The notes below the pieces were generated by a model. It was not told where the DNA came from and did no database searches. It saw only the letters and a program-made list of their open reading frames with translations. This document shows positions 6,901-36,078 of a stretch of 64,000 nucleotides of DNA, piece by piece. The stretch spans positions 302,496 to 366,495 of the forward strand of contig SMNH02000003.1 in the NCBI GenBank assembly GCA_006383075.2, written 5' to 3'. The stretch is from Kordia sp. TARA_039_SRF. Lineage in GTDB: Bacteria; Bacteroidota; Bacteroidia; Flavobacteriales; Flavobacteriaceae. Numbering within the stretch: position 1 is the stretch's first letter; each line of letters begins with the position of its first letter. The translations under genes were made by a program, and so were the position numbers.

Positions 6901-7259
6901 ATAAAAGCGGTAAAATAGATAGAAAACAGTTACCTAAAATTCAGGAGAGTGACTTAATCAAAGAAGAATACATTGCTCCTGCAAACGAAATAGAAAAACA
7001 ATTAGAAACTATTTGGAAAGAAGTTTTAGGATTGGAAAAAATAGGAACACTAGATGACTTTTTTGCCTTAGGAGGCGATTCATTGAAGTTTATAAAAATT
7101 GCAAATAATATTCATAAAGTTTTTGATGTAGAGCTAGACATCAACGAGTTCTTTTTGAATTCCAATATTCAAAAAATAGCTAAAGAAATAGATTTCAATA
7201 TCCAATTGAAAAAAAGCACTACAGCACTTCCAGAAACCAAATTTGAAGATATCATATAA
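3948..7259 (+). CDS. NRPS, docking-C-A-PCP, glycine-like module
   Basis: Single elongation module, 1103 residues, GTG start 22 bases after the previous stop. Residues 1-50 resemble the TubC-type N-terminal beta-hairpin docking domain. The C domain has HHIIGDG starting at residue 196 and LCL character. The A domain (about 515-1010) has TSGSTGKPKG, NVYGPTE and YKTGD. The PCP has LGGDS near residue 1045. The hand-read pocket code is DILQLGVVWK, close to codes known for glycine (DILQLG-IWK), so glycine is the likely substrate. The C-terminus ends FEDII, like the I/L-rich tails of its neighbours. The stop overlaps the next start in TAATG, implying translational coupling with the next subunit. Confidence 0.96.
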   Translation: MKKTFLQKLQTLGVSLKVVDESLKINAPKGVLTKELIDEIKVNKEYLLKLIKPNEIKIPVTATKESYPVTPAQKRFWIVNKLGGENGAYNITTELKFHGKLDEEIFSKTLQELIKRHDSFRTYFLEEEGSLKQCITPYKAENVVVEVEDVSNSEVKKQVALTAHYMFSHNLSQAPLVRFKVLKVEEENYILLFNMHHIIGDGLSMEIMCAEFLQIYNALTKGETPQLTDLPIQYKDYACWLEKQQEELEQSKSYWIEKLGGELPTLDFPSVYKRPRVKTYHGAVYEYVFSKNCYESLMSYTKESGASLFMGIMAAMNGLFYQYTNATDIILGTAVAGRHHTDLENQIGLFLNTLPIRTEFSETLSFEELLNIQKETLIQAYKHQKVPFDVIVDALQIPRDVSKSVLFDFMVILQNLQNNKEEQIESLEGITIEKYKREKKFSQYDSTFSFIAQKEMLSISVEYNTDIYSESFIKSLSTHLENFIINAIQSPKEPIKTIPYVSAAEEKQFLFDNNQTAQSYDKSQTVVSLFSETVKRKSNEIALVFEGKEFTYKELDLQSNKLAAYLLSSNSIEKEDRIGIQLQRSEWLIIAMLAIMKVGAAYVPIDPDYPKERVTYISQDSQCKLIVDADFIQKFSEDKNVYDFPKVILNPENLMYVMYTSGSTGKPKGVMIEHQNGVSFLQNVEEQLAFKNYTTIAATTNVVFDISFLEIFGALCTGRKMVLFSENQLNNEGLFIETMLQNRIEVLQATPSRFSLLWEAILNTSLPAFKLLLIGGEAFPNALYNNRKAFEGIEILNVYGPTEATVWSTYLNVSKSDNLHIGKPLANEQVYVLSEDLLPKPQWIKGELYIGGDGVGRGYLNQDELTKERFIENPFKKGKRLYKTGDVARWLPNGNIDLIGRVDNQIKIRGHRVELGEIEQAIAKEQEVSQVVVDVYTKDTSKLLVAYIVPNAKFDKKRLQAQLKRVLPNYMLPSYFIEIDQVPLNKSGKIDRKQLPKIQESDLIKEEYIAPANEIEKQLETIWKEVLGLEKIGTLDDFFALGGDSLKFIKIANNIHKVFDVELDINEFFLNSNIQKIAKEIDFNIQLKKSTTALPETKFEDII

Positions 7260-10200
7260 TGAAAAATTTTATCAAAGAATTATTGGCTAAAGACATACAT
7301 TTAGTAAGTCAAGATGGTAATTTAAAAGTAAAACATAATGGAAACCTGACAGAAGAAATCAAGGTTTCTATTAGAGAAAATAAAGAAGAAATTTTACAAT
7401 TCTTGAATGCATATAATGCTAAAACTACTTTTGAAAATATTTCAAAAATAGAAGCGCAAGAGTCATATGAATTATCATCTTCACAATATAGAATTTGGGT
7501 ACTAAGTCAATTTGAAGGTGCTTCAGAGGCTTATAACATGTTCAACTCGTTTCCAGTTGAGATTGAGGAAGTTGAAATATTCAAAAAAGCAATTTATGCT
7601 GTTGTAGACAGACATGAAATTTTGCGTACAGTATATAAGAAAGATGCCAACAATCAGGTTAGGCAATGGGTGAAAGATAGGGCAACATTGGGTTTTGTAA
7701 TCACAGAACATGATTTCACCAAATCAAACAATGCTTCAGAAGAAGTTGTGAAATTTATCAAGGAAGATGCCTTTAAAGCTTTTGATTTGGAGCATGGTCC
7801 TTTACTACGTGTATTTCTTCTCAAAACATCAGCAACCAATTATATGTTTTATTACAACATGCATCACATTATGAGTGATGGTTGGTCTATGAATATTCTC
7901 TTCAGAGATGTAGCTGCTTATTATGAGGCACTTAGCAAAAATACAGTTGTTGAATTACCAGAATTAAAAATTCAATACAAAGACTATGCAGCTTGGCAAT
8001 TGAATTATTTGAAAAGCGATGTTTATAAAGAACAAGAAGCATTCTGGAAGAGTGAATTATCGGGAGAATTGCCAATTCTTAAATTACCATCAAAAGGAGC
8101 AAGACCAAAAGCATTAGGGAATAATGGATATCATTTGGCAACATACATATCGCCAGATAAAGCAACAGCATTTAAAAAGTACTGTAAAGAGAAAAAAGGA
8201 AGCTTGTTTATGGGACTTCTTGCTGTGTGGAATGTATTGTTATACAAATACACAAATCAAAAAGATATCATTATTGGAATTCCTGTTTCAGGAAGAGAAC
8301 ATACCGATTTAAAAGACCAAATAGGTTCCTATGTAAATACATTGGCATTAAGAAACCAACTAAATCCAAATGATAGCTTTAACGCTTTATTTGAAAAAGT
8401 AAAAAATCGTGCGCTGTCTTGTTTCAAACATCAAATGTTTCCTTTTGACAAGTTAGTAGAGGCTTTGAATATAGAAAAAGACCCAAGCAGAAATGCTATA
8501 TATGATGTGCTGATAACTATGCAAGGAGCCGATAAAACTCGTGATGTAGTTTCTCCATCTCAAATTGATTATGCTAGTATTGAAGATGTAGGTAAAGGCA
8601 TTTCAAAATTGGATTTGGACATTGACTTTGAAGAATATGGTGATGCTATCAGTTTTAAAGTTACGTACGATGCAGATATTTACGCCAAAGAAATGATAAA
8701 GCGTATGATGCTTCAATACAGGGAATTGATAAGTGCTATCATAGATAATCCAGAAGAGGAACTCCAGTATTTAAACTATTTAACAGAAAATCAACGTCAA
8801 AAATTAATTGTAGATTTCAACACAACAGAACCAAAAGAAGAAAACGATAATACCTATATACAATTATTTAAAGAACAAGTACAAAAAACACCAAACCAAA
8901 AAGCATTGGTGTTTGATGACAAAGTTTTAAGCTATAAAGAATTAGATGAGCTATCTGATGAATTTGCATTTTTTTTACAAGACAAAAGTGCAATAGAAAT
9001 CAATGATAAAGTTGCCATACAATTACATCGCAACGATTGGCTGATTGTTGCTTTATTAGGGATTTTAAAATCAGGAGCATGCTATGTTCCTATTGACCCG
9101 AATTACCCAAAAGATCGTATAGAGTTTATTCAAAAAGATAGTGCTTGTAAATTTATCATAGACTCAAAATTCATAGAAAGCTTTGAGGAGCCGCATAACG
9201 TAGTTTCCAATATTGAAAATTTATATATAGACCATACCAATGAAACAAGCGCATATATAATTTATACATCTGGGTCTACTGGAAAACCTAAAGGAGTAGA
9301 AATAAGTCATGCTGCTTTTGTAGATTATGTAACTACGTTTAAATCGTATTTTAAGCTTACTACAGAAGACACGGTTATTCATCAAGCGAGTATTTCTTTC
9401 GACACTTCTGTTGAAGAAATTTTTCCTGTATTGATTAGTGGTGGAACTTTAGTAATAGCTTCCAATAATCAAAAAGATATTGATGGTTTATTAAAACTTT
9501 GTGAAGAACATAAGGTGACCGTTTTCAGCACCAATCCGCCAACATTACAATATTTAAACAGTATTTATACTGAAAACACGTATGATTTTAGAATTCTGAT
9601 AAGTGGAGGCGATGTGTTAAAAGCAAATCAAATCGATACACTTTTTGATAAAGTAAACGTATACAATACGTATGGTCCAACTGAAAGTACAGTATGTGCA
9701 ACCTATCACCAAATCAATAAATTACATGCGAATTTGCCTATCGGAAAACCTATACCGAATAGAGAAGTATACATATTGGAACGCAATAGTGAAAGTTTGG
9801 TTTCAGAAGGAGTCGTTGGAGAAATATGCATTGCAGGAAAAGGAATTGCTAATGGGTATGTAAATCGTCCTGAATTAACAAAAGAAAAATTTATCCAGCA
9901 TCCATTCAAAGAAAATCAACGCTTGTATAGAACAGGTGATTTAGGAAAGTGGCTTTCGGATGGAACAATTGCTTTTATAGGTAGAAAAGATGATCAAGTT
10001 AAAATAAAAGGGTATAGAATAGAACTTGGTGAGATTGAATATATAATAGCTCAAAAAGAAACCATTAAAAATGTAGTTGTTTTAGTGGAAAAATCAGAAA
10101 CATCTGCAAAACAACTGGTAGCATACATTGTTTCAGATACAAAAGAAGAAACAGAAGATTTAAGAACATTTATTGCGGCATCGTTACCGGAATATATGAT

Positions 10201-13200
10201 TCCTAATTTCTTTGTACAGATTGACGAAATTCCACAAACTATAAATGGAAAGGTAGACAAAGTTGCTTTACAAAAACTTAAAGGAAACACCATAAAAGAA
10301 GATAATTATGTAGCTCCTAGAACTCTTGAAGAAGAAATCTTAGCTGAGGTTTGGAAAAAAATTCTAAAAGTACCTGAAGTAAGTGTAAAAGCTAAGTTTT
10401 TTACCTTGGGAGGAGATTCAATCAAAGCAATTCAGGTTGTTTCAAAGTTGAAAAAAGAAGGATATGGATTAAGCGTGAAACAAATTCTTCAGTATCCCAT
10501 TCTTGAAGACTTAGCACTTCACGTAACGTCATCTATTAAGACCTCTGATCAAGAAGCAGTGGATGGAATAGTAGCGTTTTCTCCAATACAAGAAGACTTT
10601 TTTAATGACAAAACCATTAAAAACAGAAACCATTTTAACCATTCTGTAGTATTAAAAAGTAAGTCAGCAATTGATGCAGAAGTATTACAGAAAACCATAA
10701 ATACATTAGTAAAACATCATGATGTTTTACGTATGGTTTACAAGGAAACAAAAGACGGTAAATGGGAACAGATAAATTTAAATGCCGAGACAAACTTTGA
10801 CCAAATCAGTTTTCAAGACTTAAGAGAACTTGACGATGAAGTAGAAGCTATGAAGGAACATGGAGCAACATTGCAATCAAGTTTCAACATACAAACAGGG
10901 CCTTTATTAAAAATAGGACATTACAGAATGTCTGATGGAGATCATTTGGTGTTTATAGCACATCATCTCATTATTGATGGTGTTTCTTGGAGAATACTAT
11001 TAGAAGATTTTTCAAATGTGTATGAACAAATTGCTGCTAACAATAAAATTGAATTACCACTAAAAACAGATTCGTACAAGCATTGGTCTACAACTATTAA
11101 AAACTATGCGAAAAGTGCTGAAATAGCAAAGGAATTACCGTATTGGGAAACAATTACTCAAAAACAAATAGAAAAAATACCAACAGATTTTAAAACTGAT
11201 GAAGAGTACGATATTCAATACAACAAGTACTGTTCCTTTGAAATTTCTGAAGAAACCACCAATCTATTACAAACAGAAGTTCACAAAGCCTATAATACAG
11301 AAATCAATGATGTATTACTAACGTCACTTGGATTAGCCATACAAGAAGTTTTTGGCGTTAACCAGACAGTGCTTACTATGGAAGGACACGGAAGAGATGA
11401 AATTATAGAAGGCGTAGATGTAAGTAGAACAATGGGTTGGTTTACATCAGTGTATCCTGCAGTAGTTGATGTTACAAATACAAGCAGCAATACAGAAGCT
11501 CTTATAAATATAAAAGAAAGCTTAAGAAGAATTCCAAATAAAGGAGTTGGCTACGGAATTTTAAAGCACAATTCTAAAGATTTTAAACAAATTTCAGAAG
11601 CGTCATTAATATTTAACTATCTAGGAGATTTTGGTAGCAATGCAAGCAATAAGGAAGCGTCTATTTTTGACTTTTCTAGTGAAACAATTGGTCACAATTC
11701 AGATGCTCAAAATACAAACGAAGCGTTATTAAATGTATATGGAATTCTGTCGTCAGGCAAGTTAAGAATGTATATAGATTTTGATGATTCCTTGTTCAAA
11801 ACGGAAACAATACAGCAACTGTCAGATGCTTACGAAAAACAGCTAAAGGCTCTTATTGAAGCCACTTCTGCCCAAGAAGCACAAGTAACACCTTCAGATT
11901 TGACATATAAAGGATTGTCCACAAAGCAATTAGCTGAAATAAATAAGGATAATACTGTTGAAGATGTGTACGAATTGGCTCCATTACAACATGGAATTTA
12001 TTACCATGCCTTGCAAGATGCTATCAATGCTGTTTACTTTGAGCAAACCGCCTATAGAATACATTATGACAATGGAAACATTGACATGTTCTGTAAAGCG
12101 TTTAATGCCTTAGTTGAGAAATATGCGGTCTTACGCACTAGTTTTACCAATGCTTATGGAGAAACACCTTTACAAATAGTTCATAAAAAAGTAGAAAGCG
12201 ATTTTTCTTCTGAAGTTCTCAATAAAGAAGCTGTCAAAGATATAGAAGCGTATGTAGAACAGAAGAAAATTGAAGATAGAAACAAAGGATTCAATCTTGA
12301 GACTCCACAATTAATTCGATTGACAGTTTTAGAGTTAGGAAATAATAAATTTGAATTCATTTGGAGCTTTCATCACATTTTAATGGATGGATGGTGTGTC
12401 GGAATTTTAATTAGTGATTATTACAAATTTTTAAAAGCATTTGAGCAAAATAAAGAAGCAACGTTTGAAAAATCAACGCCATACAGTGAATATATCAAGT
12501 GGTTGCGTACTGTTGATACAAATGATACACTTGAATTTTGGCAAAAGAATTTAAGCAATTATGAAAATAATGCGATACTTCCATTCCAAAAAAACAAAGC
12601 AACACTGAAGAAAACTTCAAAAGAAGTCGTTGAAAAACACATGGAAATTCAACTGAAAGATGAAGTGTTTAATCATATAAATACCTTATGCACAACTCTT
12701 GGAATTACTATGAATACATTTATCCAAGGAGTTTGGGGTTATTTACTTTCACGCTACAACAATGTTGAAGATGTTGTTTTTGGTGCAGTCGTTTCAGGTC
12801 GTCCTGGAGAATTAACTATGGTAGATCGTATTGTTGGACTCTTTATAAATACAATTCCAGTGCGTGTTGCATATACAAATGATGACACACCGCAACAATT
12901 ACTAAAACGTATCCATCAAGAAGGTATTGAAGCGAGTTCACATCATTACATAAGTCTCTCTGATGTGCAAATGCAAAGCGAGCTTGGAAAAGAACTCATC
13001 AATCATTTTATTGCTTTTGAAAACTATCCTTTAGAAGAGTTTCTAAGTGAAGGAAACGAACAAACACCTGACAATCAGAAAAATGAACTTACGATTGAAG
13101 CTGTTGATAATTTTGAACAAACAAACTATGATTTCCACATCATGGCAGTGCCATCAAAAAATGCGCTGAGAATACAGTTTACATACAATGAAGCAGCTTT

Positions 13201-15118
13201 TGATACTGAGTTAATTCAAAAAATCCCTGAACATTTTCAAAATGTAGTACATGAATTTGTTTCAGATGAAACCCAATCTTTGGGCAACATTTCCTATTTG
13301 ACAAAATCGGAAGAAACTCAGATTCTGGAAGAATTTAATGCTACAAAGATTCCATATCCATCAGAAAAAACAATCATCACACTTTTTAAAGAGCAAGTAC
13401 AAGAAACGCCAAACAATATAGCGTTGATCTTTGAAAATACGGAGATGACGTATGAAGAATTAGACAAGAGTTCAAATGAACTTGCAAACTATATTAAACA
13501 GCAGTATACAATCAATACAGGAGACTCTGTAGGAGTTTTATTAGAAAGGGATGAATGGTCTATTATAAGCATGTTGGCTATTTTAAAATTAAGCGCTGTA
13601 TATGTGCCTATCGATACAAATTATCCTGAAGAACGTATCTCGTACATTCAAGAGAATAGTAATTGTATCTTCACAATCAATACTGACTTTATAACGGCTT
13701 ACAAAAACACAAAAGCTAAAAACGCTTCTTTAGAAGTTGACGTTACCACTACAGCAGACGACCTAGCTTATATTATGTATACTTCCGGTTCTACAGGAAA
13801 GCCAAAAGGTGTGATGGCTGTACAAAAAGGAATTGTTCGATTAGTAAAAAATACAAACTATGTAAAAGTAAAAGCAGGTGATCGAATTTTGAGTTTATCT
13901 AGTTTTTCCTTTGACGGAGCTACTTATGACATTTTTATGGCATTGCTCAACGGAGCAACGGTAGTTGTTACAACTAAAAATGACTTCTTAGATTACAAAA
14001 AACTCAATCAGATATTACTAGATAATCAAATCAACGGATTCTTTATAACCACTGCATTGTTTAATACATTGGTAGACCAAAAACTGAGCGCATTGCCTAC
14101 CTTAGATTATATTTTATTTGGAGGTGAACGTGTTTCAAATTTACATGTAGAAGAATTCATGAAAATGTGCCCTGAAGTAACTTTAACTCATGTATATGGG
14201 CCTACAGAAAATACTACTTTCTCAACATATTACACGATAAAAGAAATAACACAAAATGATGTGCCTATTGGAACATCCATAGCTAATAGTACAGCATATA
14301 TCTTAAACTCTTCAAAACAATTGCAAACAGTCGGAGTAGTCGGAGAAATATATCTTGGTGGTGACGGATTGGCAAAAGGATACTTAAACGATACGGCACT
14401 TACTGAAAGTAAATTTATCACATCTCCATTCAATAAAAACGAACGGATATACAAGACAGGAGACCTTGGGAAATTGTTGCCAGGCGGATATATAGAATTT
14501 ATCGGCAGAAATGATGGACAGGTCAAAATAAGAGGCTTCCGTATAGAATTAGGAGAAATTGAGGATGCACTTCTGAACATGGAATTTATCACATCTACTA
14601 TTGTAATTGCAATTACAAAAGATTCCAAAGAAAAATCACTGGTAGCGTATATAACAGCAGAAAAGGAAGTTATGGTTGAAGAAATTCGAAAAGAACTCGC
14701 AGACCAGTTTCCACATTATATGGTACCATCTAGTTTTATACAATTAGAAAAATTGCCATTAAATATCAATGGGAAAGTAGACAGGAAAGCACTTCCTATT
14801 CCAAATGATATCAATTCATTATCAACTACAGCATACGTAGCTCCTACCAATCAAATAGAAGAAGAATTGGTGGCTATTTGGGAAGAAATATTAGAAAGAA
14901 AAGGTATTGGCATACAAGACAACTTTTACGAATTGGGTGGGCATAGCCTAAAGGTGATAAAAGTGATTTCAACGATTCAGGAAAAATACGCAATCAAAAT
15001 TCCAGTTGAAAAAATGCTGATATCTCCAACAATTGAAGCGATTGCCTTAGAAATTGAAAATGTCAAATGGTCAGAGCATGTAAGCGAAAATGCATCTACC
15101 AAAAAAATAATCTTATAG
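7259..15118 (+). CDS. NRPS, docking-C-A-PCP-E-C-A-PCP (Lys-like, Ile-like)
   Basis: Bimodular NRPS of 2619 residues. Residues 1-50 form a TubC-like docking domain. Module 1: C (HHIMSDG starting at 202), A (about 525-1010) and PCP with GGDSI, then an epimerization domain (HHLIIDG starting at 1235, plus EGHGRD and FNYLGDFG), so E looks active and yields a D-residue. Module 2: a DCL-type C domain (HHILMDGWC starting at 1705), A (about 2020-2520) and PCP with GGHS near 2561. Hand-read codes are DTESIGTVCK (near the lysine code DAESIGSVCK) and DGYFLGVTFK (near isoleucine codes such as DAFFLGVTFK). Predicted contribution: D-Lys-like, then Ile-like. The tail ends KKIIL. Substrate calls are tentative; the domain order is firm. 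Confidence 0.96.
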   Translation: MKNFIKELLAKDIHLVSQDGNLKVKHNGNLTEEIKVSIRENKEEILQFLNAYNAKTTFENISKIEAQESYELSSSQYRIWVLSQFEGASEAYNMFNSFPVEIEEVEIFKKAIYAVVDRHEILRTVYKKDANNQVRQWVKDRATLGFVITEHDFTKSNNASEEVVKFIKEDAFKAFDLEHGPLLRVFLLKTSATNYMFYYNMHHIMSDGWSMNILFRDVAAYYEALSKNTVVELPELKIQYKDYAAWQLNYLKSDVYKEQEAFWKSELSGELPILKLPSKGARPKALGNNGYHLATYISPDKATAFKKYCKEKKGSLFMGLLAVWNVLLYKYTNQKDIIIGIPVSGREHTDLKDQIGSYVNTLALRNQLNPNDSFNALFEKVKNRALSCFKHQMFPFDKLVEALNIEKDPSRNAIYDVLITMQGADKTRDVVSPSQIDYASIEDVGKGISKLDLDIDFEEYGDAISFKVTYDADIYAKEMIKRMMLQYRELISAIIDNPEEELQYLNYLTENQRQKLIVDFNTTEPKEENDNTYIQLFKEQVQKTPNQKALVFDDKVLSYKELDELSDEFAFFLQDKSAIEINDKVAIQLHRNDWLIVALLGILKSGACYVPIDPNYPKDRIEFIQKDSACKFIIDSKFIESFEEPHNVVSNIENLYIDHTNETSAYIIYTSGSTGKPKGVEISHAAFVDYVTTFKSYFKLTTEDTVIHQASISFDTSVEEIFPVLISGGTLVIASNNQKDIDGLLKLCEEHKVTVFSTNPPTLQYLNSIYTENTYDFRILISGGDVLKANQIDTLFDKVNVYNTYGPTESTVCATYHQINKLHANLPIGKPIPNREVYILERNSESLVSEGVVGEICIAGKGIANGYVNRPELTKEKFIQHPFKENQRLYRTGDLGKWLSDGTIAFIGRKDDQVKIKGYRIELGEIEYIIAQKETIKNVVVLVEKSETSAKQLVAYIVSDTKEETEDLRTFIAASLPEYMIPNFFVQIDEIPQTINGKVDKVALQKLKGNTIKEDNYVAPRTLEEEILAEVWKKILKVPEVSVKAKFFTLGGDSIKAIQVVSKLKKEGYGLSVKQILQYPILEDLALHVTSSIKTSDQEAVDGIVAFSPIQEDFFNDKTIKNRNHFNHSVVLKSKSAIDAEVLQKTINTLVKHHDVLRMVYKETKDGKWEQINLNAETNFDQISFQDLRELDDEVEAMKEHGATLQSSFNIQTGPLLKIGHYRMSDGDHLVFIAHHLIIDGVSWRILLEDFSNVYEQIAANNKIELPLKTDSYKHWSTTIKNYAKSAEIAKELPYWETITQKQIEKIPTDFKTDEEYDIQYNKYCSFEISEETTNLLQTEVHKAYNTEINDVLLTSLGLAIQEVFGVNQTVLTMEGHGRDEIIEGVDVSRTMGWFTSVYPAVVDVTNTSSNTEALINIKESLRRIPNKGVGYGILKHNSKDFKQISEASLIFNYLGDFGSNASNKEASIFDFSSETIGHNSDAQNTNEALLNVYGILSSGKLRMYIDFDDSLFKTETIQQLSDAYEKQLKALIEATSAQEAQVTPSDLTYKGLSTKQLAEINKDNTVEDVYELAPLQHGIYYHALQDAINAVYFEQTAYRIHYDNGNIDMFCKAFNALVEKYAVLRTSFTNAYGETPLQIVHKKVESDFSSEVLNKEAVKDIEAYVEQKKIEDRNKGFNLETPQLIRLTVLELGNNKFEFIWSFHHILMDGWCVGILISDYYKFLKAFEQNKEATFEKSTPYSEYIKWLRTVDTNDTLEFWQKNLSNYENNAILPFQKNKATLKKTSKEVVEKHMEIQLKDEVFNHINTLCTTLGITMNTFIQGVWGYLLSRYNNVEDVVFGAVVSGRPGELTMVDRIVGLFINTIPVRVAYTNDDTPQQLLKRIHQEGIEASSHHYISLSDVQMQSELGKELINHFIAFENYPLEEFLSEGNEQTPDNQKNELTIEAVDNFEQTNYDFHIMAVPSKNALRIQFTYNEAAFDTELIQKIPEHFQNVVHEFVSDETQSLGNISYLTKSEETQILEEFNATKIPYPSEKTIITLFKEQVQETPNNIALIFENTEMTYEELDKSSNELANYIKQQYTINTGDSVGVLLERDEWSIISMLAILKLSAVYVPIDTNYPEERISYIQENSNCIFTINTDFITAYKNTKAKNASLEVDVTTTADDLAYIMYTSGSTGKPKGVMAVQKGIVRLVKNTNYVKVKAGDRILSLSSFSFDGATYDIFMALLNGATVVVTTKNDFLDYKKLNQILLDNQINGFFITTALFNTLVDQKLSALPTLDYILFGGERVSNLHVEEFMKMCPEVTLTHVYGPTENTTFSTYYTIKEITQNDVPIGTSIANSTAYILNSSKQLQTVGVVGEIYLGGDGLAKGYLNDTALTESKFITSPFNKNERIYKTGDLGKLLPGGYIEFIGRNDGQVKIRGFRIELGEIEDALLNMEFITSTIVIAITKDSKEKSLVAYITAEKEVMVEEIRKELADQFPHYMVPSSFIQLEKLPLNINGKVDRKALPIPNDINSLSTTAYVAPTNQIEEELVAIWEEILERKGIGIQDNFYELGGHSLKVIKVISTIQEKYAIKIPVEKMLISPTIEAIALEIENVKWSEHVSENASTKKIIL

Positions 15119-15160: not shown

Positions 15161-18100
15161 ATGAAAAAAACGGCTTATTTAATAAAAACTCTCAGAGAAA
15201 AAGGGATAGGTGTCAATATTCAGGGAGAAAACTTAGAAGTTTCTATTTTGAATAAAGACAACGAAATTGATGACGATACATTATCAATTCTAAAAGAAAA
15301 TAAAAATCAAATAAAAGAATATTTACAATCTCTTTCTCAGCATGAAGTTCTTGAAGTAATTCCTGTAATTCAAGAGGATAGTTCGTACGATATTTCAAAT
15401 GCACAACGCCGAATTTGGTTTTCTAGTCAGATTGAAGAAGTATCAATAGCTTATAATATGCCGGCGAGTATTACTCTACACGGTGAATATAATATAGAAC
15501 ATCTGACAAAAGCCATAGAGAGTGTTGTTGATAGGCATGAAATATTAAGAACTGTATTTGAGTACGATTCAGAAAAAGAAGTAGTTAAGCAACGTGTAGT
15601 AGCTATTTCAGATATAGAATTTAAAGTTTTTTATAAAGAGTTTCACCAAGAAGAACAATCATTTAGAAAAGCCAAAGCTTATATTTCAGAACGTGTAAAC
15701 ATTCCTTTTGACTTGGAAAGAGGACCGCTACTTCGAGTAAGCATATTACGAGTTAAAAAAGATGAGTATATACTGTTCTATAACATGCATCATATCATTA
15801 GTGATGGATGGTCTATGAATATATTATTCAAAGATATCATAGCTTATTATCGATATTATAATGAGGGCAAGGCGCTGGAGCTACCAACGCTAAAAATACA
15901 ATATAAAGATTATGCAAATTGGCAACGAAATAAGCTAACCTCTGGAGCGCTTGATGCACACAAAGAATATTGGACAAGCTCACTATCAGGAACAATTCCA
16001 AAGATAGATTTACCATCTAAAAACAATAGACTACCAGAGAAAAGTCATAATGGAAGAAGGCTAAAAGTTGTACTTCCAAAGAGAATCAGCAGTAAGTTAA
16101 AAACATATACGCATGCGCACAAAGGAACGGAGTTTATGGGAGCTCTTTCTATATTAAATGTGTTGATTTTTAGGTATTTAAATCTTTGTGATATTGCTTT
16201 GGGAATACCAATAGCAGGTAGGGAACATGCAGATTTGAAAAATCAAATAGGATTTTATGTAAACACATTAGTTTTAAGAAACCAACTCAAAGCAGATGAT
16301 AGTTTTAATGATGTTTTTGAAAAAGTAAAAGCAAATACACTCAACGCATATACATACCAAGAATATCCTTTCGACATTCTGCTAGAAGACCTAAATATAT
16401 CTAGAGAAACAAACAGGAATCCGCTGTTTGACATCATGCTAAACTTCCTAAATGTAACCAAAGGAGGTTCTGAAAATACAACCGTAGATAAAACGGAAAT
16501 TGGTCAAATAAAAGATCAAGGATTTATTTATCCAAAATATGATATTGACATATTAATTGAAGCCTCTGAAGAATATTGGTCACTCACTTTAGATTATAAC
16601 AGTGATGCGTACAAAAAGGAGGCAATGTCTGACTTAATTAATCATTTTATTGCAATATTGGATGCTGTATGTGATAATCCTAAAGAAAAAATAAGCAAGA
16701 TTAGCTACCTGTCTGAACAAGAAAAAGACAAGCTTTTATATTCTTTTAACGAAACTACTACTGCATATCAAGAAAAAGGAATCATAGAATTATTTTCAGA
16801 ACAAGTCAAATTAGTTCCTGAAAACTTAGCGGTAAAATATGAAAATGAAAGTTTAACATTTCTTGAAGTTGATGCACTATCAAACAAGTTTGCTTCGTAT
16901 TTAAATACAAAATATCAAATAAGCAGTAATGATAGAGTAGTTATTTCGTTAGATCACAATCAGTATTTAATTCCAGTATTAATTGCAGTTAAAAAATTGA
17001 AAGCGGTATATGTACCGGTCGATTCTATCATGCCAGAAGAAAGACTATTGTTCATAAAAGAAGATAGTCAAAGCTCTATAATTATAGATGCAGCATTCTT
17101 AGAGGTAATGAATAACGAAGCTGAAGAAAAAAGTTTTGATATTCAAGAAGATCATCATACAAATCCTGTTGAATTTATTATATATACTTCAGGCTCTACA
17201 GGCGTTCCTAAAGGAGTATTGTTGCGCTCTAATAGCGTATACAATAGACTACATTGGATGTGGAAAAATTATCCTTTTATGTCAGGTGAGGTATGTTGCG
17301 CTAAGACATCTATAAGTTTCGTAGATCATATCTGGGAATTCTTTGGACCATTACTACAAGGAATACCATTAGTATTCTACAAAAAGAATGAAATTTTAGA
17401 TGTTCAGAACTTTATAGAAAGTCTATCTCGAGAAAAGATTTCACGCATTGTATTAGTCCCTTCACTGTTAAGAGAATTACTATCATATTCAGATATATGT
17501 AAAGAAAAACTGCAACACCTAAAAATTTGGATTAGTAGCGGGGAAGCATTACGAGAAGAAGATGTTAAAAGGTTTTACAACGTAATGCAAAATAAAGAAG
17601 TAAGACTTCTTAATATTTACGGATCAACAGAGTTGACAGCAGATGCAATGTACTTTGATACCTATGAAGCATACAATCCACACAAAAAAATTAAATTATT
17701 TGATGACTCTTTAAAAGATGAGTTAGCAAAGTTAATATCCGAACATGATGCTTCTACGAAAATAATTAAAAATCCGTTTAAAGAAATTATAAAAAATGTA
17801 GACTTTAACAGCCCTGACATTGAAAGAAACTATACTACTGATGAGTATTTAAAACTACTAAAAGCGGAAATTTTACCAAATGTAGTCAACGTTAATTCCC
17901 CTTCTTTCATAGGACACATGGCTGGGCCAATCCCTAAAGTGGTTAGAGAACTTAACGAAGTTGTTGTAGCACTGAACCAAAATCAGGTTAAAATTGAAAC
18001 ATCAGCGATTGCCACACTTATAGAACGACAAGTCATTGGTTTCTTTCATAAGACTATCTACAAAGAAAACAATGACTTCTATGAAGAAAACATACAGAAT

Positions 18101-21100
18101 CCTAATACATCCCTAGGAGTTGCCACCAATGGAGGAACAATTTCCAACATCATGGTGTTAAACTACGCTTTAAATAAAGCGTTAGCTCCTGATAAACAAT
18201 TTAAAGGGGTAAAATCAGAAGGACTTGTTGAAGCTCTTAAGCATTATGGCTATAAAGATGTTGTTGTTATTGGGTCAGAAAGATGTCACTACTCAATAGG
18301 AAAAGCATTAAAAATATTAGGACTTGGAACAAACTCTTTTGTTGGTTTGAATTATGAAGGAAAAACAGCCAAAGAAATTCAAGATGAACTAGCGCATAAA
18401 ATAAAAACATTACAAGACGAGAAAACCTTAGTTGTTAGTATCATAGCAATTGCTGGAGCTACGGAATCTGGAAATATAGATCCTTTAGAGCTTCTTGGAA
18501 ATATAGCATTAAAAAACAACATTCATTACCATGTTGACGCTGCTTTTGGAGGTAGCTTTTTACTTGCAGATGAGTTTAAAGATAAATTCAAAGGGATTTC
18601 TTTGGCAGACTCTGTATCTGTTTGTGCTCACAAACAATTATATCTTCCTGTAGGACTGAGTTATTGTATATTTAAAAAACCTGCTTTTGCAGTGCATTCT
18701 GAGAACAATTCAAACTATCAAGCACGAAAAGGAAGTTACGACTTAGGCAAGTATACCCTTGAAGGATCTAGAAATTTTTCAAGCTTTATTGTACACGGAA
18801 TACTAAACATTTACGGTAAAGAAGCATTTAGTGAAATCATTGTCTACAACTATAAGAATGCACAGCAATTTGCAAAGAAAATTCAAGGCTATGAAGAATT
18901 TAAGTTGCTGTTTCAACCAGATTTAAACATTGTTTTATATAGATATATTCCAACAACGCTCCGACATAAAAAAGTATTTACAGATACAGAACTTGAACTG
19001 ATTAATCAAATTAACCTTCAGATTCAGCAGCAACAGTTTGATGCTGGAAACTCTTTTGTATCCTACACGAAAATACAAAGACAGAATGCGATGGAAGATC
19101 TTGTTTTACGAGCAGTATTTATGAATCCATACACAACAGCGGAGGATTTAGAAAATATACTCGAAGAGCAACGAGCATTGGGTTGTGAAATAGAGGATGT
19201 TCCTTTTATTGAAAAAGAGAAAAACGTCGGTAAAAATGTATCATTAGGAAAACCAATTGACAATGTTAAAATTTACATTTTAGATGAATATGCCAATATA
19301 TTACCTGTAGGTGTTGTTGGTGAAATTTGTGTAAGTGGTGACTGTGTTTCCGAAGGTTACTTACGAAATACTAATGTAGAATCTAATAAGTTTATGGACA
19401 GTCCTTTTGTAAAAGGGGAGCGTATGTACAGAACTGGAGATCTTGGAAAAAGATTGAGAGATGGAAGCATAGAATTCATCGGAAGAAATGATTCGCAAAT
19501 AAAAATAAGAGGAAACCGAATTGAATTAGGCGATATTGAAAATGCGCTATCAAATTTAGACTATATAAAGTCTAATGTTGTAGTGACTGCAACACAAGAT
19601 TCAGGTCAAAAAATATTAGTTGCATACGTAACTACAGATAAAGAAGTACCTAATGAAAATATCAGAAAGGCATTAGCTGAAAAATTACCAAATTATATGT
19701 TGCCTTCTTATTTTGTACAACTTGATGAATTTCCATTGAATTCGAGCGGCAAAATAGATAAAAATAAATTGCCATCTCTTGAGGAAATAGGTACGTATAG
19801 TAACACTTCATTTGAAGTGGCAAGCACTATTAATGAGCAATTATTAGTTCAAGTCTGTGAAAATGTCTTAAAGCAAAGCCCAATTAGTTTAACAGACAAT
19901 TTTTACAATCTTGGAGGAGATTCTATAAAATCAATTCAAATTGTTTCAAGATTGAGACAGCATGGATTGATTATAAAACCTGAAGATATTCTTACTACAG
20001 ATACCTTGAAGGATTTAGCAAAATTAATTGTAAAAATAGAAAGAGAAATTGATCAAGCAGCAGTTACAGGAACTGTAATACTTACGCCGAGTCAAAAAGT
20101 ATTTCTTAACAACAATCAATTGCAGGAAACATCAAATGATAATCAAACTGTTTTATTACAGACACAACGACAATTGGATTCAGAATTGTTGGAAAAAACG
20201 ATTAAAGCACTAACGATTCATCACGATGCACTTCGAATGACATTCAAACATCAAGAAGAAGGCATCATTCAATACAACGAGGATACTTCAAAAAAGCACT
20301 ATGTATTCACCTCTTATAATCTTACAGCAGTAAAAGATACACAGGCGGAAATGACAAGATTATTGGAAGATGCTCAAAAAAGTTTTAATCTTTTAAAGAA
20401 TCCAATACTTCATGTACATCATTTTAAATTACCTAATGAAGATCAAGTAGCATTGCTTTCACATCCTATTGTAATGGATGCGGTTTCTTGGCAAATAGTT
20501 TTAGAAGATATCTCTAATACGTATACGAACTTAGAAAAAGGATTACACAGTAATTTGCCACTAAAAACGGATGCTTTCCAAACTTGGGCTAACGCTCAAA
20601 AATACTATGCTCAAGAAGTTTTAAATACTAAAGAAGTAGCATACTGGGAAAATGTCACAGCGCAAACAACATCAGAATTTCCAGTAGATACCCTATTGGA
20701 TGAAGCAGTTGTGCTTGATGCTAATATGTCATTCAAATTAGATCAAAAAACGACAAAATTACTACAGAATGAAGTACATGCTGTATACAATACAGAGACG
20801 AACGATATATTATTAACCGCTTTAAGTTTAGGAATCCTAAAGAGTTTTGGAGTAACCGAATCTATAATAGAGTTGAGAGGTGATGACAGACCGCGAGTTA
20901 TTGAAAACATCAACACAAACAGAACTGTAGGATGTTTTAGTAATGTTTATCCCTTTATCTTACTAGCGAACTCAAGTTCTAACACAGAAACACTTCTACA
21001 AGTAAAAGAATCTTTACGTTCAGTGCCTCATCAAGGAATAGGATACGGAATTTTAAAATATTCGACGAATGAATTTTCAAAAGAGATACAACCAGATATC

Positions 21101-24100
21101 GTATTTAATTACTTAGATGGTACTATATATCAGGAAAATAACTCTCTATTTCATTTGAAAGCAAATGAACTAAATAATAATTTGTCTACAAGTAACGGTA
21201 CAGAGAAATTAAATGTCTTATGTACTTTGATAGACGGATCATTAGAAGTCAATGTTAATTATGCTTCTCAAGTATATCATGAGAAAACTATACAAACATT
21301 CATTTCATTATATGAATCTGAATTAAAGGTACTTATAGAAAAGGTTATTGCCACAAAAGAACCTGTTCTTACCCCATCAGATTTATCATTTAAAGGGTTA
21401 AGTATAAAAGAATTAAAAGCACTAAACACAGACTACACCTTAGAAGATATTTATAAAATATCTCCTTTACAAGAAGGAATGTATTTCCATTGGTTACGAG
21501 CTAATAAATCAAGAATGTATTTTGAGCAAACTTCTTACAAACTTACGGGAGTGAAGTTCTCTATAAATTCATTAAAAGGCGCATACGAAAAGTTAGTATC
21601 TAGACATGGCGTTCTAAGAACAAGTTTTAGTAATGACTATGCAGGAGAATTACTTCAAATAGTTAGAAAGGAAGTTGTTGGTGGCTTTAGCTATGAAAAA
21701 TTTCCAGAGAAATTAACAGCTACGCAGCAAAAAGAATATATAGAAAGAATCAAGAAAGAAGATATAGAGCAGGGTTTTGATTTGAATGTAGCTTCTCAAA
21801 TGCGACTTAAAGTTATTGATTTAGGAAATGAATCTTATGAGTTTATATGGAGTTACCATCATATTTTAATGGACGGATGGTGTTTAAGTATTTTAATAAA
21901 CGAGTTTACTTCATTATACGCGTCTTTAGAAAACGGATCGGCGCCTATATTGCCAAAACCTACACCATATTCCAACTATATTCAATGGCTAAAAACGGTA
22001 CAAAAGGAAGAAACAAACGCCTATTGGAAAGCATATTTATCATCCTATGAGACGGTAGCAGAAATACCTTTTAAACAAGCGGATAATTCTTTAGACTCTA
22101 CAAATCAATTAGAAGAAAGTTATGTCATAAAAGATGAACTCTATGCAAGTTTAGAATCATATTGTAATACTTTAGGAATTACACAAAACACCTTTATCCG
22201 CGGTATATGGGGATATTTGCTATCTAAATATAATAATACCAACGATGTAGTATTTGGCTCTGTTGTTTCTGGACGACCTGCCGAACTGGATGATGTAGAA
22301 AACATGATAGGTCTTTTCATAAATACAATTCCGGTAAGAGTTCAATATGATGGTCAGACAAAGGCAATAGATTTACTAAAACAATTACAACACGAGTCTA
22401 TTACTAGTACTAAACATCATTACAATAATTTAGCATCTGTACAAGATCAGAGTACATTAGGTTCAGATCTCATCAATCATATCCTTGTCTTTGAAAATTA
22501 TGCAGTGCAAGAAACTGTTGGAGAAACAAGTAATTGGACAGATTCTAAACTTACAGTTGAAGAAGGAGACAGAGTTACACAAACAAATTATGATTTTACA
22601 ATCATAGCTATTCCACAAAAAAGAAGTCTCGCATTAAAGTTTAAATACAATGGGAATCTCTATGTTGAAGATAAAATTAAAAGAATAGCAAAACATTTAG
22701 AAAATATCATTCTCGAAGTAGTCAACAACAAAGATGTTACTTTAAGTAATATAAACTATTTAGATACCGAAGAACAAGTTAGAATATTAGAAGAATTCAA
22801 CGACACAAAAACTTTATATCCAAAAAATAAAAGTTGTATTACATTATTTAAAGAGCAAGTAGAGAAAACTCCAAAAAATACAGCACTTTGCTTTCAAGAC
22901 ATCCAACTTACTTACGATGAATTGGACAAACTATCTAGTCAATTTGCTACGTATTTACAAACGCATCACAAAGTAAAGCCTAATACTACTGTAGGGATAA
23001 AGCTTCCTAGAAGTCAATGGCAAATTATAGCACTACTTGGCGCCTTAAAAACGGGAGCTATTTATGCACCGATAGACTATAAGTATCCTCAAAATCGAAT
23101 TGATTTTATTATAAACGACAGTAATTGTACAACTGTAATAGAAGAAAACACGATTGATGATTTTGTGAATCTTCAACATGAAATAACAGAGCAACTAGAA
23201 GCACATACAGGAAAGGTAGATGATATTGTCTATGTAATGTATACTTCTGGATCTACCGGAACACCAAAAGGTGTAAAAGTTACACATCAAAATATTGTCA
23301 GACTGGTAAAAGAAACAAACTTCTATCAGTTCTCTAAAGCAGATACTTTACTGAGTACAGGATCGTTCTCTTTTGATGCTACTACAATAGAATTCTTCGG
23401 AACACTTTTAAATGGAGGTTGTTTGGTAATTCCAACCTATGAAGTATTAATGAATCCTGACGCACTATCAGAGGAAATCAACGAAAAAGAAGTAAACATT
23501 ATGTGGTTTACTGCAGGTTGGTTCAATGAGTTGGTAGATACTTCCAGCAATCTCTTCAGACCATTAAAAACAATCTTAGTAGGAGGAGATAAGCTCTCCA
23601 GTACACATATTTCAAAAATACAAGACATATATCCTTCTCTTGAAATTATCAATGGATATGGACCTACAGAAAACACAACTTTTTCGCTTACATACAATAT
23701 TTCGAAAGTCGTAGAAAATATTCCTATCGGTTCACCAATAGCAAATAGTACAGCTTATATATTTGATGCCTATCAACAAATAGTTCCTACAGGAGTTATT
23801 GGAGAAATTTATCTTGGAGGAGATGGTGTTTCAAAAGGATATTTAAACAATCCGGAATTAACAGCAGCAAAATTTATCCAAAATCCTTACAATTCGGAAG
23901 ATACGCTCTACAGAACTGGAGATTTAGGAAGATGGCTAGACAATGGTGTTGTTGAATTTATGGGAAGAACGGATGATCAATTAAAAATTAGAGGTCACCG
24001 CGTAGAATTAGGAGAAGTAGAAACACAATTATTACAAAAATCTTCCATAGACAAAGCAGCTGTTTTGGCTAAGAAAGACGAACATGGGAATTACTATTTA

Positions 24101-27100
24101 GTTGCGTATTTCGTTTCCAATAAGAAAGAAGTAATTTCTGAGATAAGAACATTTTTGTCAAGTTCTTTACCAATATATATGATTCCTAGCGGATATATTC
24201 AATTGGATAAAATGCCGCTAACAGTCAACGGAAAAGTTGACAGAGCTGCACTGTCAAGTATCGATACAGAAAAACACATCATTAAAGATCAATATGAAGC
24301 TCCAATTACAGAAAGACAACAAGTACTTTGTAGTGTTTGGGGAAATGTATTAAAGCGTACTCCAGTTGGTCTAAAAGACAATTTTTACAATTTGGGAGGA
24401 GATTCTATCAAATGTATACAAATTGTAGCACGACTCAAGCAAGAAGGATATAGCTTAAAAGTAGAAGAGATTTTAAGATATCCGGTATTGGGAGAATTAG
24501 TGCAGTATATGAAACACAATCAAACTGCTATTGATCAAGCAGAAGTAACGGGAGATGTACTCTTAACTCCAATTCAACATTACTTCTTCGAAAACGCAAA
24601 CATAAAAAACAAGAATCATTACAATCAATCTATGTTCTTAAAAATCACAAAGAATATAGACCATGAGATTCTTAAAAAATGTCTACACAAGCTGGCTATC
24701 CATCATGATGCGCTGCGAATGACTTTTGATAAGGTTAACGAAGTGTGGATGCAAACAAATCTACCAGAGTCCGAAACTACATTCGACGTTAGCTATCATG
24801 ACATAACCGAGGTTGAAAATCCTGAAAAGGAAATGCAAAAAATAGGAAGCGAAACGCAAAAATCATTCAACATTGAGAATGGTAGTCTTTGTAAAGCTGT
24901 ACACTTCAAATTAAAGGATGAAGATATGTTATTTGTAACCATTCATCACTTAGTTGTGGATGGTGTATCATGGAGAATTTTCATGGAAGATTTAAGCACA
25001 CTTTACGAACAGTTCTCAGAGAATAAAACAATCAAGTTACCTTCTAAAACGCATAGTTATCAACATTGGGCAGCTATTCAAAAGCAAGTTGCTACTAGCA
25101 AAGTAGTACAAGAAGAAACTTCTTACTGGGATAGTATTTGTAGTAAAAATGTACATCCAATCCCGTATGACAAACAACCAAAAATCAAATTATTTACTTT
25201 AAACGGTTCTACTTCTTTCGGTTTAAGTAAAGAGGTTACTGAACTTTTACAAACCAAAGTACATAATGCATATATTACGGAAATCAATGACATCTTAATT
25301 GCTTGTTTAGGACTAGCAATCAAGGATGTGTTTGGAACTACTGAAACCTTGCTGCAAATGGAAGGACATGGTAGAGAAGCCATTGCTGAAGATTTGGATA
25401 TCGGTAGAACTATAGGTTGGTTTACCTCTATTTTTCCGTTTGTATTAAATCATACCTATGAAGATCACTTAGAAGTATTGGTAAAAGTCAAAACAGACTT
25501 GCGTAAAATTCCTAATAAAGGAATTGGGTATGGAATGTTAAGACATCTAAATAACAATGAAGAGCTTACATATATTCCTGGAGCAATATTTAACTACTTA
25601 GGTGATTTTGGAAGTAAAGCAGGAAACAAAGAAACTTCAATTTTCGAATACGCTTCTCAAAGATTAGGAGAAGATGTAAGCAAGAAAAACGGTTACGACT
25701 GTCCGTTAATTGTTACTGGAATGATGAGTTATAACGAACTTAGTATCGACATTACGTATGCAAAAGACTACTATGAGGTCGATACAATGCGAAAATTAGC
25801 AGCGCGTTATCAGCATCATCTTGAAGCATTAATTCTTGAACTATCAAGTATTGAAACAAGGCAGCTAACGCCTTCTGATGTAACTTTTCCAAGACTTACG
25901 AGTAGAGAATTAAAAACACTAAATACAAATAACAATGTAGAAGACGTCTATGAACTATCGCCTTTACAACAAGGAATATTTTACCAATGGTTATCGGATA
26001 AAGAATCGTTAGCATATCTGGAACAGGTTTCTTATCGATTAGAATCTAAAAACCTAAGTATTGAAAATGTTCAAAAAGCATACAATCAATTAATAAATAG
26101 ATATGCAATTTTAAGAACAAGATTCACCAATGATTATGGAGGTGTTTCTTTACAAATAGTATACAAATCGATTGTAGGAAATTTTGAATATCAATCTATT
26201 GACGCTTTAACCATAAATGATACTGAGGCATATATAGAAAATATAAAGTTGGAAGAATTGAGAAAAGGATTCAATCTTGAAAAAGACTTCTCTCAAATGC
26301 GCTTAAAAGTTGTAGAATTACCAAACAATGAATATGAATTTATATGGAATTTCCATCATATTCTTATGGACGGATGGTGTATTAGTATTTTGGTAAATGA
26401 TTTCTATAAATTGCTTTTAAATATTGAATCTACAAATGCAACAGCACTTCCAACACCAAAACCTTATTCAGATTATTTAAGTTGGTTAACAAATATAGAT
26501 AAGGAAAAGTCGCTATTATACTGGAATAACTATCTAAATGGGTACAATAGTTTAGCAACCATTCCTTATAAAAAGAATGGTTTAAAGCAAAATTCAGAAA
26601 AGTTTTCTAGAAAAGAAATGCATATTACAGGAGCATTACTAGAAAAGATTAACAAAATATGTCTTGCTCAAAACATTACTCGAAATACATTCATGCAAGT
26701 AGTTTGGGGATATTTATTATCAAGATACAATGATGTGCAAGATGTTGTATTTGGAGTAGTAGTATCTGGTAGACCTGGCGAACTGGAAGGAGTTGAAGAA
26801 ATGGTTGGACTATTTATCAACACGATACCGGTAAGAATGTCTTATACGCAAGAAGATACACCAACTTCTATTTTACAAAAAATGCATCAAAGTGATATCA
26901 ATAGTAAGCCATATCACTATTTGAATCTTTCAGAAGTTCAGGCAGAAAGTAATCTTGGAACAGATTTACTAGATCATATCATGGTATTTGAAAATTATCC
27001 TGTTCAAGAACTCATTAAAGAAGATATTGAAAGTCACAACAAACAAGAATTGGCAATTGCAGCGGTTGATGTAATTGAACAAACAAATTATGACTTAGAT

Positions 27101-30100
27101 TTGACCATTGAATTGTCTGAAAACTCATTAACAGTACAATTTAACTACAATGAGCATGTATATGAATCTTCTGGTGTAGAATTAATAAGTACGCATTTAC
27201 TAAATGTAATTGATAGATTTGCTACAGAAGATACAAAACCACTAGCTAATTTTGACTTTTTATCTGAGGTAGAGAAAAACGAACTATTGATTGCATATAA
27301 CGATAATGCAACAATTTACCCGTCAAATGAAACGATTTTAGACGTATTTGAACAACGAGTAATCGAAAACCCAGAAGAAATTGCTGTAGTTTTTGAAGAT
27401 GTCAAACTTTCTTTTAAAGAATTAGACATACTTTCCAATCAATTAGCACATTACCTAAAGGCAAACTACTCTTTAGAAACAGGAAGCCATGTAGGGATAA
27501 AACTTGATAGAAGTGAATGGGTAATCGTAAGTATTTTTGCAATTCTAAAAACAGGAAGCACATACATTCCAATTGATACTGCGTATCCTGAAGATCGTAT
27601 ATCATTCATAGAAGAAGACAGCCAATGTAGTGTGTGTATTGATGCTGAATTTTTACAAGAGTTCAATAAAAATCAATCAAAATGTAGCAAGGAAAAACTG
27701 GTAATACAACTATCTTCGGAAGCTTTAGCTTACATTATTTACACATCCGGATCAACAGGGTATCCAAAAGGAGTTTTAGTAACGCATGCTTCGGTTGTTA
27801 ACATATACTACGGATGGAAAGCAGCATACCGTCTAGATGATTTTAAAGTAACCTTATTGCAATTAGCAAGCTTCTCCTTTGATATGTCGGTGGCTGATTT
27901 GTGTAGATCTATTCTAACGGGAGGAACCATGGTAATTTGTGGGAACGATATGAAGTTGGATACAACGTCTATGTGTAATTTAATCACAGAGAATCAAGTA
28001 AGTGTATTTGAAGGAACACCTTCATTTGTAATGCCGTTGATGCGTCATATTCACAAACAGAAGATTGATGTTAGCTTCTTAAAAATGATCATTTTAGGAG
28101 CTGAAAGTCTTAATTTAAATGACTTTGAATTCTTACTTCTAGAATTTGGTCACAATAGCCGTGTTATCAACAGCTATGGAGTTACGGAAGCAACAATTGA
28201 TAGTACGTATTATGAATGCGAAGTAGACACCCATCACGAGTTGAGTACAACTGTACCAATCGGAATTCCTTTCCCGAACGTACAATTATATGTCTTAGAT
28301 GCCAACAAGCAACTCGTGCCTAAAGGAATTGCGGGTGAATTGTATATAGGTGGAGAAGGAGTTGCTAAAGGATATTTAAACAGACCAGAATTAACAGCAC
28401 AAAAATTCATAGCCAATCCGTTTAATAAAGAAGGATTACTTTATAAAACCGGAGATATGGCAAGATGGTTACTTAACGGAACACTAGAATTTTTAGGGAG
28501 AAGTGACGATCAGGTAAAAATTAGAGGATATCGAATTGAATTAGGTGAAATAGAGTATCAAATACAACAATTCACAACTGTAGAAGATATCATAGTACTT
28601 GCAAAACAAGGCGCACAGGAATATAAAGAATTAGTGGCATACTTTACAGCTACTGAAAAGATAGAATCTAAAGAATTGAGAGCATATCTGTTAGAAAAAC
28701 TTCCATCATACATGCTTCCAAGCTACTATATTCAACTAGATAAAATGCCGTTATCTCCAAACGGAAAAGTTGATAAAAAAGCACTTCCTGAAGTACTAGA
28801 AGAGAACTTACAGCAAGAAAACTTCATTGCACCTAGAACTCCAGAGGAAAAAGCATTGGTTAGTGTTTGGAATGCAGTCTTAAAATTTGAAAACATAAGT
28901 GTAAAAGATAGTTTTTACAATTTAGGAGGAGATTCTATAAAATCAATTCAAGTAGTAGCAAGACTAAAACAATTAGGATATAGCTTGAAAGTAGAACAAA
29001 TTCTTAAAAATCCTGTGCTGGAAGACTTAGCAAATTTTGTGACGAAAAATACACGAATTATAGATCAATCGCCAGTTTCAGGAGAAGTATTACTTACGCC
29101 AATACAACACTATTTCTTTACAGACGAAAGCATCGTAGTAAAACATCATCACAACTTACCAGTATTGCTAAAAAGTAGTGTGGAACTCGATGCTAAAGTC
29201 TTAGAACGTTGTATTCAAAAATTAATCATGCATCACGATGCTCTACGTATGGTATACAGTAATGAAGATGGAATTTGGAAACAATACAACAAAGGTATTT
29301 CAGGCAAGCATTATACAATACAATATCACGATTTAAGGAACGTACCTAATGAATTAGAAAAATTAGACAAACTAGGAAATGATATTCAATCGGGAATAGA
29401 TATTGTCAACGGACCATTATTGCATGTTGGACATTTTAAATTATCCGATGGAGATCGTTTGGCATTAATAGTACACCATTTAGTTGTTGATGGGATTTCA
29501 TGGAGAATTTTATTGGAAGACCTTACGGGATTATATGAAGCAGAAATCAATCAAACAAAGTTTGAATTAATGCTAAAAACAGATTCTTTCCAAAGTTGGG
29601 CATTAGCACAAAAAGAATATGCACATGGAAAATCTATTGAAAAAGAATATTCGTATTGGGAAGAATTATGCCGTCAAACCATACCAATGTTGCCTGTAGA
29701 TAAAGAAGCATCAACAAATGGAATTTATCATCACAATCAAGAAAAAGTACTGATTTTAGATAAAAAAATCACAGAAAAGCTACAAACAAAAGCACATAAA
29801 GTATACAAGACAGAAGCAAATGATATACTTCTTACAGGACTTAGTTTGGCTATTAGAGATACATTCCAAACGAATCAATGTGTCATAAAATTAGAAGGGC
29901 ATGGAAGAGAAGACATCATAGATGATATTGATATTAGCAAAACTGTCGGTTGGTTTAGTTCTGAATATCCAGTAGTACTTGATGTTGCGAATGTTGAAGA
30001 AAACATAAAAGCATTGGTACGCATCAAAGAAAATCTTAGAAAAATTCCAAACAAGGGAATTGGCTATGGAATGTTGCGCTATTTGAGAGATGACTTTGAA

Positions 30101-35990: not shown

Positions 35991-36078
35991 AGTGAACCAC
36001 TAACTTCGGGTTAAACTGAGCCACCCTTGCCGGCTCAAAGTGAGCATAGCTTGCCGGATGAAAGTGAACCACTAAAAA
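35984..36078 (+). repeat. IS21 left subterminal repeats (4 units, 23-24 bp period)
   Basis: Four imperfect direct repeats begin at 35984, 36007, 36031 and 36055, each of the form CGG-N(2-3)-AAA(G/C)TGA(A/G)C, mostly ending CCAC. The right end shows one clear unit (38472-38496 region, inverted) and a degenerate second one. Multiple terminal repeats of this kind are known in IS21-family elements as transposase binding sites. Confidence 0.85.

Follow-up and report, generated by a model that had tools for sequence, protein, structure and literature searches.

A PanP-type decarboxylase inside a nonribosomal peptide synthetase adenylation domain of Kordia: a probable self-supplying beta-alanine module

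In Kordia sp. TARA_039_SRF, a nonribosomal peptide synthetase (NRPS) gene encodes an adenylation (A) domain in which a group II decarboxylase of PanP type, depending on pyridoxal phosphate (PLP), is inserted between the core motifs A5 and A6. The gene lies on contig SMNH02000003.1 (assembly GCA_006383075.2), in the stretch of 64,000 nucleotides from position 302,496 to 366,495 that was analysed here and is called the window. We observed this anatomy with its catalytic motifs in the window and again in other genomes, coupled in all 13 interrupted domains compared to a single type of substrate pocket. As judged from sequence, the insert probably converts free aspartate to beta-alanine, which would be activated by the A domain around it, so that the module would supply its own monomer. 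The layout of an A domain split by a PLP enzyme is not new in itself; what is added here is a wider family, the A5-A6 site, the common pocket type and the functional proposal.

The NRPS open reading frame (ORF) extends over positions 15161-33691 of the plus strand (6176 codons without a stop, 6176 aa), with the interrupted module at its start and three further A domains behind it. The module begins with a condensation domain (residues 75-526, Pfam PF00668; 15383-16738), followed by the N-terminal part of the A domain with motifs A1-A5 (residues 545-833; 16793-17659), which matches positions 1-331 of the AMP-binding profile PF00501, is recovered in AlphaFold2 and Foldseek and carries the A5 motif YGSTE at residue 820. 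The inserted decarboxylase occupies residues 841-1350 (17681-19210). Behind it the A domain resumes with motifs A6-A10 (19211-19780), where a second Pfam query matched positions 341-384 of PF00501 and AMP-binding_C was found at residues 1459-1531, K1531 corresponding to GrsA K517; the module ends with a peptidyl carrier protein (PCP; PP-binding, PF00550, residues 1561-1623; 19841-20029). The A5-to-A7 spacing is 605 residues in the split domain versus 86 and 91 in two other A domains of the same ORF found by motif pattern, so the split domain holds about 515 additional residues. Pfam calls and spacing thus agree with the original prediction, made from the letters of the window, of A1-A5, an insert of about 520 residues, A6-A10 and a PCP; PF00282 was found within the split PF00501, and V721, D722, W725, D1126 and K1158 are all located in the ORF where that prediction had placed them. 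Since core motifs flank an in-frame catalytic domain and a carrier protein comes next, this is an interrupted A domain, and its split by a decarboxylase is genuine and no chance match.

The family of the insert was assigned by profile searches. Pfam gave Pyridoxal_deC (PF00282) at residues 903-1262 (E 3.5e-36, profile positions 29-374 of 375), with 125.2 bits against a gathering cut-off of 27 and with the His, Asp and Lys of the PLP site present. The NCBIfam model of PanP, TIGR03799, matched residues 840-1340 over profile positions 20-522 of 522, with 454 bits and an E value of 4.8e-136. This full-length match upholds the assignment to PanP-type group II decarboxylases, though it lies below the curated cut-off. 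As to another PLP family for the insert, the Pfam matches to Beta_elim_lyase and Aminotran_5 were below their cut-offs. The insert is 55% identical to that of Kordia periserrulae and 34-38% identical to six standalone PanPs.

Across the 13 interrupted proteins (that of the window and those of 12 further loci described below), 13 of the 15 decarboxylase positions examined are invariant, the exceptions being T993, a Ser in 2 of the 13, and R1204, a Lys in one (L048). Eight residues, N939, N941, H1043, D1126, H1157, K1158, Y1186 and R1317, are also invariant in all 19 standalone proteins compared. We take His1043 (18287-18289) to be the PLP-stacking residue, Asp1126 (18536-18538, in HVDAAFGG at 1124) the partner of the PLP pyridine nitrogen and Lys1158 (18632-18634, in AHKQLY at 1156) the Schiff-base lysine. 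D1126, K1158 and R1317 align with GAD67, where Arg1317 (19109-19111) falls on the Arg of FFRMVISNP, a carboxylate-binding residue (PMC3870968) and presumably the one numbered Arg567. An insert that is catalytically dead, or purely structural as a dimerising element, is very improbable, given that all 13 interrupted proteins share H1043, D1126 and K1158.

Residues 537-1559 were modelled with AlphaFold2 from a 38-row alignment; the mean pLDDT was 87.4, with low confidence in both linkers that flank the insert. The Foldseek matches comprised A domains, aligned across the insert (4d4i, TMt 0.84; 1amu, 0.66) and decarboxylases (DfoJ, 0.88; GADL1, 0.86; GAD67, 0.84).

The substrate pocket of the split A domain opens with V721, D722 and W725 (17321-17335; motif VDHIWEF at 721), which correspond to GrsA positions 235, 236 and 239. 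At positions 235, 236, 239, 278, 299, 301, 322, 330 and 331, alignment yields VDWVISIAD, with K1531 as the tenth residue, and so reproduces the hand-aligned code VDWVISIADK of the original prediction. The pocket matches the pattern of beta-alanine-activating A domains (VDW...S..D with Asp at 236). Code positions of the other A domains were mapped by alignment to the window domain, and the count was reduced from 83 to 69 rows by setting aside 5 incomplete A domains and 9 rows of L041-L045, loci that repeat or adjoin others. The other interrupted domains have codes with Trp or Cys at the third position (VDWVISIAD, VDWVVSIAD, VDCVTSIAD, VDWVTSIGD, ADWVTSIAD and VDWVTSIAD) or with Ala (VDAVFSLAD in three, VDAVFSIAD, VDALFSIAD and IDAIFSIAD); the tenth position is Lys in 12 of 13, the L067 stretch stopping before it. 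With the pocket type defined by Asp at 236, no Asp at 235 and Ser at 301, it was found in 13 of 13 interrupted but 0 of 27 uninterrupted A domains of the same loci (Fisher p 8e-11, kinship ignored), and Asp235 is present in 26 of these 27. Standalone panP occurs together with at least one readable A domain in 12 loci, of which five (L033, L034, L035, L052 and L115) have the pocket type. In three of these, NRPS loci of Mycetohabitans and Xenorhabdus (L033, L035, L115), we noted a second Asp236 pocket type, VDTVISFGD or VDTVVSFGD; the Mycetohabitans domains fall elsewhere in the A-domain tree, which omits the Xenorhabdus one as too short.

In the mechanism that we propose, the embedded domain would remove the alpha-carboxyl of free L-aspartate, and the A domain, with Asp236, Ser301 and Asp331, would adenylate the resulting beta-alanine and load it on the next PCP, as its code and the conservation of this code suggest. 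Embedding would increase the local supply of beta-alanine, which is otherwise made by PanD for pantothenate. PanD was found in 10 of the 13 interrupted genomes, including that of the window, so that pantothenate need not rely on the insert in those genomes; a profile search of the window's own genome found no second TIGR03799 match. Fold type I PLP enzymes occur as homodimers or homotetramers and the active sites of group II decarboxylases are shared between subunits, from which the module would be expected to act as a dimer or to pair two synthetase chains. Direct channelling between the decarboxylase and adenylation sites is possible. That a dimeric insert pairs two chains and hands beta-alanine to the adenylation pocket with no release to the cell pool is a tentative idea, and on balance a doubtful one. 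Aspartate decarboxylases encoded within NRPS clusters, PleC and DtxS4, have been proposed to supply beta-alanine to NRPSs in fungi (PMC12177691), and would share this role with the insert but are separate proteins, PleC being replaceable by the host pool.

The original prediction held that the insert cannot act on a PCP-bound residue. This exclusion does not stand: an aspartate attached by its beta-carboxyl would still expose the alpha one, which makes decarboxylation on the carrier chemically possible; such a step is proposed for bolagladin, with a precedent in vicenistatin (PMC7756342). Aspartate would here be activated via its beta-carboxyl and loaded on the PCP as beta-aspartyl, and the insert would remove the alpha-carboxyl there. 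The BolO/BolC/BolN proposal is modelled on VinN, and the bolN deletion was not rescued by beta-alanine (PMC7756342). Like the window module as we read it, VinN/VinO and BolO/BolN are proposed to bring an aspartate-type substrate to a carrier-bound beta-alanyl by PLP-dependent decarboxylation, but they activate the beta-carboxyl, decarboxylate on the carrier and are separate proteins (PMC7756342). Methyltransferase inserts work on T-bound substrates, as stated in a review, and alpha-decarboxylation of an amino acid tethered to phosphopantetheine has been speculated upon (PMC3870968). A docked model in the same paper places the Arg567-equivalent on the alpha-carboxylate, so that R1317 alone cannot separate free from tethered substrate. 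However, Arg567 of GAD forms a salt bridge to gamma-aminobutyric acid (GABA; PMC3870968), whose sole carboxylate is the former side-chain one, a better fit to a free diacid. That paper also argued from an N-domain described as lost upon embedding, whereas in the 13 interrupted proteins A5 and the GHM motif are 96-104 residues apart, an estimated 15-20 of them A domain, compared with the 97-112 residues that separate Met and GHM in five standalone PanPs linked to NRPS/PKS genes; the segment ahead of the PLP domain thus seems mostly retained in the embedded form. VinN is described as holding the alpha-carboxylate by Arg331 and a Ser, whereas the window pocket has Asp at both 331 and 236 and no basic residue among the nine aligned positions. 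VinO/BtrK-type enzymes have a different PLP fold. We therefore regard the on-carrier route as rather unlikely in this module, and as less likely than the use of free aspartate.

Several points weigh against the supply of beta-alanine from free aspartate by the insert. The Arg contact to the alpha-carboxylate in the docked model would also fit a tethered substrate. The full-length TIGR03799 match, at 454-458 bits, is below the curated equivalog cut-off of 606.1, which leaves the insert outside PanP membership as curated, and aspartate as substrate is therefore not established. GAD, CSAD and GADL1 are among the relatives of the insert, and the same architecture might act on another acidic substrate, giving GABA from glutamate or hypotaurine from cysteine sulfinate; this is quite improbable, as the next decarboxylase family among those shown scored 109 bits against 454 for the PanP model and the pocket fits the beta-alanine code. 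That code, VDWVISLADK, which the original prediction likewise gave as the reported one, was not found as a string in the literature searched. According to a review, the solved A domains for beta-amino acids (VinN type) retain Asp235; the window pocket, with V235, A330 and D331 in place of the Asp235 and Lys330/Arg331 of that type, is therefore a different one. Within the stretches examined, 7 of the 12 standalone-panP loci lack the pocket type, and PanD was not found in 3 of the 13 interrupted genomes, all three being metagenome-assembled genomes (MAGs). The pTM of the AlphaFold2 model is 0.57, which gives little confidence in the placement of the two active sites relative to each other. In PleABC, host beta-alanine replaced the decarboxylase (PMC12177691), so that local supply need not be essential. 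Finally, the interrupted A domains are not independent, because 12 of the 13 form one clade with two relatives.

In this A-domain tree, the clade (support 98/99) comprises 12 interrupted domains, that of L062 being too short, together with one A domain each from L052 and L034. The latter two are uninterrupted and share the code type, L034 having Asn at position 331, and each lies in a locus with a standalone panP. The L052 domain pairs with the interrupted one of Flavitalea. In L052 (Chitinophaga sp. YR573) we also noted a standalone PanP with a short N-terminus (57 residues to GHM) beside the uninterrupted A domain with the code VDWVTSIAD; this locus may have arisen by a split of the fused form or may resemble its precursor. 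In the PanP tree, the interrupted rows need at least two changes against the NRPS-adjacent ones; the outgroups were long-branched and one of them was a 200-aa fragment, so that the root and the number of insertion events are only loosely constrained.

The original prediction had pointed to other genomes as a place to look for the same architecture. A scan of genome contigs with an eight-row alignment gave at least 551 relatives, of which the best 80 loci were kept; a scan with a single protein had returned 50 stretches, in which no relative was confirmed. Among the best 80 loci, the decarboxylase is flanked by A5 and A7 within a single frame in 12, the frames of 63 do not exceed 615 aa, and 5 lack the searched motif (L069 and L075, standalone, L086, L090 and L118). 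The interrupted loci belong to Bacteroidota (Tenacibaculum gallaicum, Kordia periserrulae, a Saprospiraceae MAG, Chitinophaga oryziterrae, Chitinophaga sp. GbtcB8 and Flavitalea sp.), to Cyanobacteriota (Acaryochloris MAG, Richelia MAG and Hyella patelloides) and to SAR324, Parabeggiatoa and Fibrobacter, each represented by a MAG. In all, MAGs account for six of the 12, and Hyella is the only non-MAG outside Bacteroidota; the SAR324, Parabeggiatoa and Fibrobacter lineages, all MAGs, therefore rest on binning. In Kordia periserrulae (G179), the insert lies within a 3567-aa frame. When 388 genomes were drawn from the order of Hyella, two more cyanobacterial long frames with A5 and A6 flanking the decarboxylase were added (G1669 and G1639). 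Two genes fused by annotation or assembly can be dismissed almost with certainty: the window and 12 of the 80 loci, which come from separate genomes and in six cases from non-MAGs, each show a single open frame, with the two later ones besides, and these independent genomes refute an artefact. From the order of Hyella, three further cyanobacterial copies of the embedded type were noted, one in a broken frame (L195, in G1513) and two as short standalone frames (L194, in G1654, and L196, in G1625), which may reflect decay or excision.

The layout is rare. Among the matches listed, it was found in 2 of 397 genomes of the window's own family; 395 genomes of its order yielded one at 1e-60 (its own genome), 388 from the class of Hyella yielded two that were already in the set, and 244 from the family of Chitinophaga oryziterrae yielded one, C. 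oryziterrae itself, figures that may miss cases since the 3-5 best candidates were scored per genome. The layout recurs, with a common insertion site, in more than one phylum, Bacteroidota and Cyanobacteriota.

In the window, the interrupted-module NRPS gene is itself intact and stands in a larger cluster. Upstream, on the same strand, are three NRPS ORFs (2-3925, 3948-7259 and 7259-15118), the first of which seems to begin some 4.8 kb ahead of the window. Downstream, a polyketide synthase (PKS) ORF with ketosynthase (KS) and acyltransferase (AT) domains (33708-35990, plus strand) is cut within AT by an IS21 element (35974-38504; IstA 36128-37672, IstB 37681-38412). The AT remainder sits at the start of contig C13 (L171), preceded by 116 bases that match the right end of IS21 exactly, and is followed by a frame with a ketoreductase and a carrier. 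The cut is either a real rearrangement or an assembly join at a repeat, and the product line may be interrupted in this strain. Behind the PKS remainder, positions 2447-16205 of L171 hold a HalD-type halogenase, a class III aminotransferase, an Asp/Glu racemase and another NRPS; this region may be the second half of the cluster. Downstream of the cluster, ORFs on the minus strand of the window (51665-54558) resemble, by eye, a coupling protein and a relaxase.

Jamaicamide, a product of Lyngbya majuscula, contains a beta-alanine unit. No decarboxylase-interrupted A domain was known to the original prediction, but JamL of the jamaicamide cluster (Q6E7J8) was listed in 2013 as C-HxxPF-A-PLP4-A-CP, with the function of the embedded domain called unclarified (PMC3870968). 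Its Pyridoxal_deC is embedded in an A domain and the layout as listed equals that of the window; JamL differs in having PKS and NRPS domains on one chain, and is set beside the window module by its described layout (PMC3870968). Other interrupted A domains carry methyltransferase, ketoreductase, oxidase, monooxygenase or reductase inserts, as given in reviews, at sites named as A2-A3, A4-A5 and A8-A9 (PMC8097286). TioS-like domains likewise hold a catalytic domain while keeping the A fold (5wmm, rank 49 in Foldseek), but at those sites and not at A5-A6, and methyltransferase inserts act after loading whereas the window insert probably acts before it. PchE also has a domain inserted in its A region and is a dimeric NRPS, but its insert is an epimerase and not a PLP enzyme (PMC8807600). 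Standalone panP in NRPS/PKS clusters (Mycetohabitans, Gloeocapsopsis, Nostoc, Paenibacillus, Chitinophaga YR573) belongs to the same enzyme family, with a nearby Asp236-code A domain in the 5 of 12 loci, but is a separate gene beside an uninterrupted A domain.

The analysis offers a testable function for the layout represented by JamL. Neither the A5-A6 insertion point nor an action before loading is named in the review literature consulted on interrupted A domains. If the insert does make beta-alanine for the domain that holds it, interrupted A domains would extend from on-carrier tailoring to the supply of a monomer within the module; the split domain could serve as a part for placing beta-alanine in engineered peptides, and as a mark in genome mining for products that contain beta-alanine.

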